Source: Paramacrobiotus metropolitanus (taxonomy: Eukaryota > Tardigrada > Eutardigrada > Parachela > Macrobiotidae). Taken from it: 64,000 nucleotides of DNA. The translations under genes were made by a program, and so were the position numbers. Numbering within the stretch: the stretch's first letter is position 1; each line of letters begins with the position of its first letter. The stretch lies in contig NW_026570347.1 of NCBI RefSeq assembly GCF_019649055.1, positions 124,001 to 188,000 on the forward strand. The letters are read 5' to 3'. Of the stretch, positions 59,046-63,848 are shown piece by piece. The notes under the pieces are model-generated. The model made no database searches and had not been told where the DNA came from. It was given only the letters and a program-made list of their open reading frames with translations.

Positions 59046-59053
59046 GTTCGCAG
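59046..59053. repeat. Target-site duplication of outer hAT element (left)
   Basis: GTTCGCAG directly before the element end TAAGGAACGACC; the same eight bases follow the other end at 63841-63848. Confidence 0.85.
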
Positions 59054-59742
59054 TAAGGAACGACCGTCCACGGAAAATGGAATTCCACGGATGGAATCCA
59101 ATTTCCAAATCCGCGCTCCATGCGAGCGGCTCGGATTTGGAAAATGGAAAATAGGAAATCCGTGGAAATCCAATTTTTGCTTGGAATTCCAAATTCCCTG
59201 TATTTGGAATTCCAAACGCGTAGGAATGTCGAACAAAAAATTAAAAACTGAACATTTTTCAACGAGTAGCTACAAATTTATTATTTAAAAAATGGCCGTC
59301 TCTATTTTGACACTGCCCGGTAAAGAAAAAACGCGCCAGAGATATCGAAAAACGTCAGATCGGAACATGAGTACGCATGCATGACTCGTACAGTAACAGA
59401 GACAAGTTACCGGTGTCCTTTTAACCGCACTACATCAATGATATAGGAGTACTAGTATTTGTAGATGTTAGTATAGTTTTGTTTTGCTGTTTTAAAACTA
59501 AGGAGAAAACATACATGCATATCGAAATTTAATAACTTCATACGTGGTTTTAGCGCAGCAGCCAAAACTACCCTTTTCATGTATTTCTTTTTCGTGGAAT
59601 AAGTCAAGAAGTCGTCTTGATCTGTGTGACAGTCTGGCAGACGACAATACATGTACGTACTTTTCAAAAAGATTATTTCATTACATTGTCCCCTGAACAT
59701 AATAATGAAAATATCCAGTGTCCGCGTTCAGTAGCTACAGCT

Positions 59743-59899
59743 TAGGACAAAACGGTCGCATACCCAACATCCCCACATTCAGTACGAATGCAGCGCAGTG
59801 CACTGTACGACTGAGTTCAAAATATCCGTTTCGTACAAGTGCACTGCACCGCTTGCGTACAGAATGCTGGGTATGGGGCTATGCGACCATTTAGTCCTA
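59743..59899. mobile_element. MITE inside element X
   Basis: TAGGACAAAACGGTCGCATA at 59743-59762 is mirrored by TATGCGACCATTTAGTCCTA at 59880-59899 (three mismatches in 20), and the inverted similarity extends about 15 bp further inward. Length 157 bp, no coding. TA at both edges may be the target duplication, suggesting a Tc1/mariner-type source. Confidence 0.75.
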
Positions 59900-59900
59900 C

Positions 59901-59908
59901 ATTGTAAC
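59901..59908. repeat. Target-site duplication of inner hAT element (left)
   Basis: ATTGTAAC directly before TAAGGAGGAC; the same eight bases follow the other end at 63446-63453. Confidence 0.88.
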
Positions 59909-59987
59909 TAAGGAGGACATTTCCACGGGTTCGAGCCCGTGGAAAGGATTTGGAAAAGAAATTGCCACGGAATTCCAAGGATTCCGT

Positions 59988-60023
59988 GGATTTGCGGAAA
60001 TCCAAACGGATTTCCGCAAATCC
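59988..60023. repeat. Perfect 16-bp hairpin in the left end of element Y
   Basis: GGATTTGCGGAAATCC (59988-60003) pairs with GGATTTCCGCAAATCC (60008-60023) around the loop AAAC. A second hairpin, TCCACGGG with CCCGTGGA around a 6-nt loop, lies at 59922-59943. Confidence 0.85.
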
Positions 60024-60128
60024 AAGGATTTCACTATATGCCTTGGAAAATACCTTACGTAGCTATAATAATTAAGCGTAATTATTTTAAAAACGTCATT
60101 CCAGAAGACTACTGTTTATTGAATTAAA

Positions 60129-62861
60129 CTATCCACCGAACAGATCATCCAGACTGTAAAAGTCAGCATCATTAGAATTCAGAGTATTTTCTTCATCACA
60201 CGCATTGACCAGTTCACAATAAAAAGCGACCAAACTGTCGAAATCTGTGCTCTCCCCATCGTCTGGCCCGCCATCAGCATCCCCAGACACACCGAACACC
60301 GTTCCGCCGCTAGTGCCGACAATCTCCAGCTCCTCGTCTTCCATATCAAAAGCCGCTGCCAGCGTTTTCGCATCTACGATCGGAGTATAGCTATTGTACA
60401 ATAACAGAATGAGGATACGATATACGTACTACAGACTACTACTATAACTTATAAGCTATTATTTATTAAGTATTAACTATTTAGTTTTTTTGTGCTACTG
60501 CTGAAATATAAGATCGGTTTTTATTTTTATTATACAGTTAATTTCAAACGTATTTACACTTCTGCATTTCACGGCGGATGTTTAAGTTTTTTAATTTAAC
60601 GGTACAAAATTACAAATTTTACCTTTCTTTTCTCGCTTCTCTTTTTGCCGGCGGTCTCGTTTCGCATGATGCGCAATAAGCGCAGCGTTCATAACGCTGG
60701 CTGTCGTCAAACGGTTCCGAATATCAGTGTTGATATACGCGTACCGGCTCCAGTAGCGCTCAAGGTATGCCGAATGCACGCCGCCGGACAGGAGAAATAT
60801 GGCAAGGTCACGCAGTTCGGAGTGCTGATCATCGATGAGGCTCCAAAAGTAAAACGGATTATCAAACTGTTTCACTGTATCTTTAGCGAATGGTTGAATC
60901 CAGTTCTTGTACATCGTGAACGAGCGCAGCAATGATGTCGGCTTTCGTCCAAATACCTTCTCGTAGTATTTCGACGCAAGAAAGGCGACCGTTTGCCAAG
61001 TGAGGCGTTCGTCACGTGGTCGAAAGAATTCCAGTCGCTTGCTGTAGTCGAGAACAGCCGCAAGTACAAGCAGACTTGGTGTGAAAAACTTCATCCATCG
61101 ATTCTCCAGGGCCGCAGTCAGATTATCGCTCAGCGCACCATCATCGACAATTTTGAAACAGTGATATAATTCGTACATGGCTGTCATGACGTCCGACAAA
61201 GTGCACCCATCTTTTTCAAGTTGTCCTTGAGCGCTGACTACGGGCTTCAAAATATGCTCGACTTTCTTCAGGTTGCCCCAAAAAGTTATATCATCCAGAA
61301 TAGTGCAAACCATTTCATCGGGAATTTCTTTCGCAACCGCCATCACCTGTGAAGATGAACTGCTATAAATATCAAATCATTTTCAAATATTTACAGTACA
61401 ATGTTAAAAACAACAACTTATTGCTGCTTAAAAAAGCAATTAAGGTTTCAAAACTTTTTAACATTTTGTTAAACATCCGCTGCTCTATGTTAGATTTACC
61501 CGTAAACTTTTTTTGCTGTCCAGCAAAGCGCGGAAGCAGTTATAATAGGAGTACCATCGTGTGTCGGTTGGCTTCGAAATGGCAATTGTTTTTTCTCCGT
61601 TGCCAGTTGAGATTTACGCAGCCGCCCCAGGGAGACAATATTCTGATTAAAATGTGAGACGACTTTCAGGGCGCTTTTGCAGGTCGGCACGAACATCCCA
61701 AGCTGCAGCATATCTTTCACGACAAGATTGATTTGATGCGCCTTACATGATTCAAACAAAATTCGGGGAAACTTTAATGACAGAATGCGCCGTGCTTTGA
61801 CATTGTATGAGGCTGAGTCGCAAACACTGAATCCAAGGTCGGCGTTGTACTTGTTCGTGACCGTGTCTATCCACTTTGAGGCGTAAACAACGACATCATC
61901 CGCAGTGGATCCTTCCGTTGAAACATCATCCGCCGCAATAACGTAATTCTCAACTTGCCCGTCGGTTTCATCTCTCCAGGTAACCGCCGCACCTGTTTCA
62001 TATGCAAAAAACAAAATTTAATACGAGTACTATTTATTACGAGTATTAAATAAATGCAATTTATTACGATTACGATTACGAATTATTAATTTATTTTATG
62101 CAACTGGTGTATCTGACAACCAGATGATTGTGCAGTTGACAAATTTTATCCACATAAAATTCACTATTTTCTGAGCCACCAAAATCGAGTAGTATTACCT
62201 AGAATGTTTCTCTTTGAAACATTTTTGAAGCCATCAAACGTCAGTGTGAGAAATCGTTTTCCGTTCAGAGCTGCCTCCATAGCTTTCTGTGCCGTCTGGG
62301 CATGCTGCCGAATAATCCGACCGCGCAGGACGCGTTGTGTCGGGAACTGAATTCCCGGGCGCAACCACTTTAACCACTCCACTACTTCTGGGTTTTCAAT
62401 AGCTGCATAAGGGAGATTCGCTGAAGCAAATGCTCTGGCCATCAACTTTTCGTGTTCAACGATTTCAGCCTTGAATAATGCGCGGTCTACAAACGATGTA
62501 ATTTTGGAGGATTTCGCATCTCGAGCGTTTTCCTGAACGTCGGGCAGTTTCCGCTTCCTGGTGGATGCGCGCTGGGAGATGAGACGGTGGCACGGACGGC
62601 TGCAGGGACATGTCGACATTTCTGCAAGTGCTCCGTCATGTATTTTCTTTCTCCTCTAATGGCCACGCGAACTCCGTCAAAGCTGGAATGGGCTTCGCAA
62701 AATTTACAAAATGCTTCGCTCTGTGTACATGATTTGTACTTTCCCCCTCTATCAAAGTGTGTCCATAAATCGAGTCTCACACGGGATAGCGTAATCTCTG
62801 CAAGCATTTTCATATTTGTACAGAAAGAACTCGTACCGTACTCGTACTCGTACCTCACCAT
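60129..62861 (-). CDS. hAT-superfamily transposase (BED finger, RNase H-like core, dimerisation domain)
   Basis: Exons: BED part about 62560-62861, core 62199-about 62560, 61508-61992, 60623-61346 and 60129-60373. The last four are in phase across GT/AG introns. The N-terminal zinc finger shows C-x2-C (AFCKFCEA) and H-x4-C (MTEHLQKCRH). A basic stretch (TRKRKLPD), the hAT core (LTLTFDGFKNVSKRN for the first Asp, SVCDSASYN for the second, CKAHQINLVVKDML) and the C-terminal hATC dimerisation region (NPFYFWSLIDDQHSELRDLA, then RNRLTTASVMNAALI) follow. A separate last exon adds a very acidic tail. Between the BED region and the core the frame changes by one base with no room for an intron, so one indel (real or an error) separates them. 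Otherwise the gene looks recently active. Confidence 0.83.
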
Positions 62862-63445
62862 TCAATAAGAAATTTGTCGGTAAACGTCGACTATAAAGTT
62901 GTTGTGCTAAAAGTCAAAATAGGTGAAAGTAAACTGCGTACGCACCTTTCGCGCCAGCTTCTCCTGCATCCTCCTCATCCGACATTCTACACTGATGACA
63001 GTCCTAAAAGCGCGCGCGAAATTCTGACGAAGGCGTTATCAGAGTATCGAAATCGAAGCAATCCAACGCAATGAAGTTTAAAGAACGATAACTACTGCGT
63101 GAGCAGGGCAGATTATGAAAAGTATTGAAGGAGTAAATTGAATCAGTTCTTGTTGAACAGTCTTATACCGTTATACGCAAAGTTCCATGAAACAAAGTGC
63201 TAACTAGCAAACGAAGAAGTAAGTACCAGCTGGCGGGTGGCGGAAATGTTATTCCACAACAGAATTACAGTGCAAGAAGTGTGTTTCCGTTTGTAAACTG
63301 CTATTTCTGGAATTCCACTGAGCAAGTGGAATTCCACGGAATCCTTGAATTCCATTTTCCAAATCCGAGCAACCCGAGAGGAGCAAGGATTTGGAAATGG
63401 AATTTGATCCGTGGAATTCCATTTTCCTTGGACGGTCGTTCCTTA

Positions 63446-63453
63446 ATTGTAAC
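63446..63453. repeat. Target-site duplication of inner hAT element (right)
   Basis: ATTGTAAC, matching 59901-59908 exactly. Confidence 0.88.
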
Positions 63454-63725
63454 TATCTGCAGTTGCCGAATCTGCACTATACTGTATCTCTAATATCTGT
63501 ATACTGTAAACGGCATCTGTACTAGCTATGCTTTTATAACATAATACTACTGCCTCTGTTTATGAAAATCTGTGTACCTTTACTCTGTTTAGAACTTTGA
63601 ATGCATTTACAAGTGATGAATGCGCGGTAATTAAGCAGCGGGCGATAACTGTAATGGTGTTTTGTTAAAACTTATGTAAATAGATGGCTAATTAATGGTA
63701 TTCCAACGAAAAAAACAAAATCCTT

Positions 63726-63761
63726 GGATTTACGGAAATCCATTTGGATTTCCGTAAATCC
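63726..63761. repeat. Perfect 16-bp hairpin in the right end of element X
   Basis: GGATTTACGGAAATCC (63726-63741) pairs with GGATTTCCGTAAATCC (63746-63761) around ATTT. It corresponds, inverted, to the hairpin at 59988-60023 but with an A-T pair in place of a G-C pair. The companion hairpin TCCACGGG with CCCGTGGA is at 63806-63827. Confidence 0.85.
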
Positions 63762-63840
63762 ACGGATTCCATGGAATTCCATGGCAATTTCCTTTCCAAA
63801 TCCTTTCCACGGGCTAGCGCCCGTGGATTTGTCCTCCTTA

Positions 63841-63848
63841 GTTCGCAG
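63841..63848. repeat. Target-site duplication of outer hAT element (right)
   Basis: GTTCGCAG, matching 59046-59053 exactly. Confidence 0.85.

Follow-up and report, generated by a model that had tools for sequence, protein, structure and literature searches.

Among the hAT transposons described so far, Hermes, an Ac-group element of Musca domestica, is about 3 kb long, generates 8-bp target duplications and has dissimilar ends with subterminal repeats, which are read by the BED-type fingers of its transposase (PMC10368747). BuT2, a Tip-group element of Drosophila with associated MITEs, has a five-exon transposase gene; its full copies are few, and its many short copies have only the ends in common and carry their own 8-bp duplications (PMC3942097). 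The medaka hAT element Tol2 inserts with a weak palindromic preference for TNA(C/G)TTATAA(G/C)TNA (PMC2753552). Our search of the literature on nested hAT insertions returned nothing closer. In this work, we analyzed a nest of transposons in a 64,000-nucleotide window (the whole stretch of DNA under analysis, C127:124001-188000) and searched the 170-Mb assembly of 533 contigs for members of the same family with three queries: the type-2 end, the inner element in full and the left part of the outer one, as defined below. Wnt genes identify the assembly as that of an animal; the possibility of a photosynthetic source was checked as well, and no light-harvesting family turned up.

Two 8-bp direct repeats delimit two elements at this locus, one inside the other. 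The outer repeat, GTTCGCAG, occupies positions 59046-59053 and 63841-63848 and flanks an element at 59054-63840, placed on the minus strand so that its type-2 end comes first; the inner repeat, ATTGTAAC, occupies 59901-59908 and 63446-63453 and flanks a 3537-bp full-length element at 59909-63445, on the plus strand with its type-2 end on the left. Both pairs place the nested hAT elements proposed in the initial annotation exactly, to the base. The ends are of two kinds: type 1 reads TAAGGAACGACCGTCCA... and type 2 reads TAAGGAGGACA...TCCACGGG.... The type-1 ends of the outer (59054-59191, plus strand) and inner (63308-63445, minus strand) elements are about 81% identical over 138 bp, and the type-2 ends of the inner (59909-60048, plus strand) and outer (63718-63840, minus strand) elements are 90% identical over 123 bp. 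The two kinds of end follow each other in opposite order in the outer and inner elements, which shows the inner copy to be inverted, as had been claimed. The termini common to family members are TAAGGA...TCCTTA; the terminal inverted repeats are imperfect, with an identical TAAGGA followed, after a 7-bp break, by an interrupted match to TCCA(C/A)GG within 20 bp. The inner element is 99.2% identical to a second full-length copy, C97:543101-546639, and their lengths (3537 and 3539 bp) fall inside the 2.5-5 kb of autonomous hAT elements. Four related ends lying close together in inverted order could also be expected of a single composite or rearranged element, produced by an internal inversion or by recombination between two copies and not by two separate hAT insertions. 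However, an exact 8-bp duplication of its own flanks each pair of ends, the insertion point is uninterrupted in seven relatives of the outer element, and the inner element is found alone elsewhere, at C97. On the strength of these separate duplications and of the empty sites, we rejected the single composite element, which we consider extremely improbable.

The outer element, when joined without the inner one, measures 1242 bp, which matches the approximately 1.24 kb first assigned to it, but the element proper is only about 1.07 kb long, because 169 of these bp correspond to a MITE and its TA duplication. This third layer was missing from the initial annotation and was found by aligning the joined outer element with its seven relatives (C32, C1b, C150, C76, C13, C92a and C92b), from all of which the MITE is absent. 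The MITE is 167 bp long (59738-59904, plus strand) and is flanked by its duplicated TA target at 59736-59737 and 59905-59906; its arms, at 59732-59804 and 59838-59910, show 74% complementarity, and its duplicated TA and inverted terminal repeats are those of a Tc1/mariner-type MITE. It belongs to a high-copy, very uniform family in this genome, with 352 candidate copies, of which the 40 that were scored were all 98-100% identical over the full query. At the point where the MITE and the inner element interrupt the outer one, the seven relatives (7/7) are continuous and read GCAGATAGT and then TAGCTACTGAAC, with one base different in C92b, and thus constitute a paralogous empty site. No allelic empty site was found for the outer element when the assembly was searched with its left flank, which is single copy. 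The inner duplication ATTGTAAC is composed of ATTG, the four terminal bases of the MITE, followed by the duplicated TA of its target and by AC from the outer element. Since this duplication straddles the end of the MITE, the order of insertion was outer element, MITE and inner element.

The genome-wide search yielded 33 members with both ends, including the two window copies, and 29 of them have a perfect 8-bp duplication at identical termini, with a 7/8 match in one more, so that the expectation of further copies with 8-bp duplications was borne out. All 30 duplication sequences (29 perfect and one 7/8) differ from each other. When matches were counted at shifted positions as a control, a perfect 8-mer match occurred in 27 of 69,696 trials (4e-4), and the window pairs sit exactly at the termini. 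Chance 8-mer repeats were ruled out by this control together with the about 30 further copies with duplications. The claim that this locus fixes exact family boundaries was open to contradiction by copies ending at other bases; we checked for these, and the claim held. The members without a clean duplication were C97, C69 and C32. Only two full-length copies were found (the inner element of the window and C97) versus 31 short ones, a composition that, together with the five exons described below, resembles the layout of BuT2. The short members measure 0.76 to 1.38 kb, except for a 2.29-kb copy on C99 with an extra insert, and their similarity to the full-length copy is confined to the ends, where the divergence amounts to about 8-22%. 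Two 917-bp copies (C36 and C4) come out as identical in the tree yet lie at different targets, indicating recent movement of the family. Two side observations were made among these copies: (i) the short member at C99:14874-17559 has about 1.35 kb more than the near-identical copy on C326 and shows a 5-bp overlap where the two part, the extra sequence being another nested insertion, and (ii) four further members (C117, C240, C463 and C19) have a single recognised end and are either truncated or longer than the stretch read.

The insertion sites of these copies revealed a target preference whose peak lies outside the duplicated 8 bp. A T three bases before and an A three bases after the duplication were present in 46/60 half-sites (P 4e-14), and within the duplication T at positions 2-3 and A at positions 6-7 were each present in 33/60 half-sites, resulting in the palindromic consensus TAn-nTTwwAAn-nTA. 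The nTnnnnAn preference of the Ac group was also present (33/60 half-sites, P 3e-5), but more weakly than the signal outside the duplication. These P values are indicative, as they assume independent half-sites and concern a pattern first seen in these very data. The Buster group prefers nnnTAnnn, and TA was found at positions 4-5 of the duplication in 7/30 sites. The window family shares with Tol2 the T and A at +/-3 outside the duplication, although its +/-3 signal is stronger (46/60 half-sites) and its second flank preference is at +/-2, whereas that of Tol2 is at +/-1.

The hAT identity of the family, which the initial annotation had assumed, is supported by the 8-bp duplications of about 30 copies and by a Hermes-like transposase with the DDE residues aligned. 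A profile built from this transposase and three paralogs matched Hermes (E 7.8e-12) over the core, where the acidic D, D and E of the RNase-H-like transposase were aligned, and over a second stretch corresponding to the hAT C-terminal dimerisation region; since the transposase is Hermes-like with aligned catalytic residues, we assign the element to the hAT superfamily. In the single-sequence comparison with Hermes, the match had an E value of 0.014 and overall similarity was low. The Pfam models DUF659 and Dimer_Tnp_hAT were detected in 3/4 and 2/4 of the aligned proteins, respectively; for the transposase of the window family alone, only DUF659 was detected, below the curated cut-off, and Dimer_Tnp_hAT was not. 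A finger of the form C-x2-C...H-x3-C (C44, C47, H70 and C74) is invariant in the 4/4 proteins and has no match to the Pfam BED model. As judged from sequence, the window family thus has the hAT superfamily features that we tested, with the BED finger counting neither way. Sister elements elsewhere in the genome, 2.4-3.1 kb long, have perfect TIRs of 12-19 bp (TAGGGTTGTTGATA..., TAGGGTTGAAAT... and TAAGGATGGTAATA...), and each is flanked by a perfect 8-bp duplication of its own, which lends independent support to the assignment of the window family. Their transposases are mostly 30-42% identical to that of the window family over the better-matching exons, with the same kind of C-terminal tail, and they share the 8-bp duplications; however, their perfect TIRs set them apart, and in the sister loci that were read we found no similarity to the ends of the window family. 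One sister hAT family, present in at least 4 copies, consists of elements of about 3.06-3.09 kb whose perfect TIRs measure 17 bp (TAGGGTTGTTGATACCA) and which have 8-bp duplications.

The transposase gene model was read on the C97 copy, with GT-AG introns, and then placed on the window copy. It comprises five exons on the minus strand: exon 1 (62946-62985), exon 2 (62199-62797), with the BED-like finger, exon 3 (61500-61992), with the region of the second catalytic D, exon 4 (60623-61346), with the catalytic E and the C-terminal dimerisation region, and exon 5 (60129-60373), with the stop codon. In C97 this model is open throughout and encodes 700 aa, making this copy a candidate for a complete transposase copy. 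The inner element of the window differs from C97 by 27 substitutions and two single-base deletions, one in exon 2 (at 62556-62559) and one in exon 3 (at 61588-61595), which break its reading frame. The claim that the inner copy carries the transposase is therefore correct as to the presence of the gene, but the copy may itself need help to move, and it is probably non-autonomous unless the deletions are assembly errors, which is possible for both, as each lies in a short single-base run. Substitutions between the two copies were rarer in coding (10 in 2103) than in non-coding positions (17 in 1436; P 0.03), and 7/10 of the coding ones were synonymous (P 0.002), which suggests that the transposase was under constraint until recently. 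C97 lacks a target duplication, its flanks being GGCAGCAC and GCCTCGCC, and a genome-wide search for its empty site found none, the bases adjoining the insertion being single copy on both sides.

Taken together, these results point towards three successive cut-and-paste insertions, the hAT elements probably being moved by a Hermes-like DDE transposase. The earliest was that of a non-autonomous hAT element, about 1.07 kb long, at GTTCGCAG; the 167-bp MITE followed, at a TA of this element; and finally, a full-length hAT element of 3.54 kb, from a related subfamily, inserted in inverted orientation at the junction between the MITE and its host element, duplicating ATTGTAAC. The transposase would recognise the ends of about 140 bp, probably by means of its BED-like finger and of the GGAA/AAATCC words repeated there, cut at TAAGGA and insert with an 8-bp stagger. 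We assign a probability of about 0.96 to this account, in which the boundaries, the duplications, the paralogous empty site, the order and the homology to hAT transposases are observed. Counting against it are the failure of the left-flank search to find an allelic empty site, the lack of a target duplication at C97, the nearest full-length relative, and the interruption of the inner transposase reading frame in the assembly. With respect to the ends, those of about 140 bp are dense in TGGAA, AAATCC and GAATTCCA words, which are rare in the interiors. Compared with Hermes, the core and the dimerisation region of the transposase match, the catalytic residues being aligned, and the 8-bp duplication, the element length and the dissimilar ends with subterminal repeats are similar, with a finger that is here BED-like; in contrast, the termini differ, and the subterminal words are GGAA/AAATCC instead of the AAGT/AAGC of Hermes. 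By analogy, the word-dense ends of the window family may be used in a way comparable to the subterminal repeats of Hermes.

That the outer copy is non-autonomous, as initially annotated, was upheld by our analysis, and the full-length enzyme might be what mobilises the short members. The divergence of about 8-22% between their ends and those of the full-length copy, and the finding of two full-length copies against 31 short ones, would also fit the movement of the short members, the outer element included, by a different and unseen transposase with closer ends than those of the inner element. Against this, similarity confined to the ends is what recognition sites would predict, and those related transposases of the genome that were examined belong to elements whose TIRs are different (TAGGGTTG... 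and TAAGGATGG...). We regard a separate enzyme as possible rather than probable. Returning to mobilisation by the full-length enzyme, it is tempting to speculate that the window family represents an undescribed TAAGGA hAT lineage, characterized by an unusually strong 14-bp palindromic target preference (TAn-nTTwwAAn-nTA) that peaks beyond the 8 bp of the duplication, and that its enzyme moves several diverged subfamilies of short elements within a single animal genome, a proposal that we hold tentatively and at somewhat less than even odds.

Altogether, the window family is a real, recently active and ordinary hAT family, and this locus is a well-resolved yet ordinary case of nested transposons that leaves the general view unaltered. 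It fixes the exact ends of the family, supplies about 30 natural target sites and, with C97, a candidate for a complete transposase copy, and allows a three-step order of insertion to be read at one locus from its scars. These results can be used for annotation and, perhaps, for a transposon tool in this animal group.
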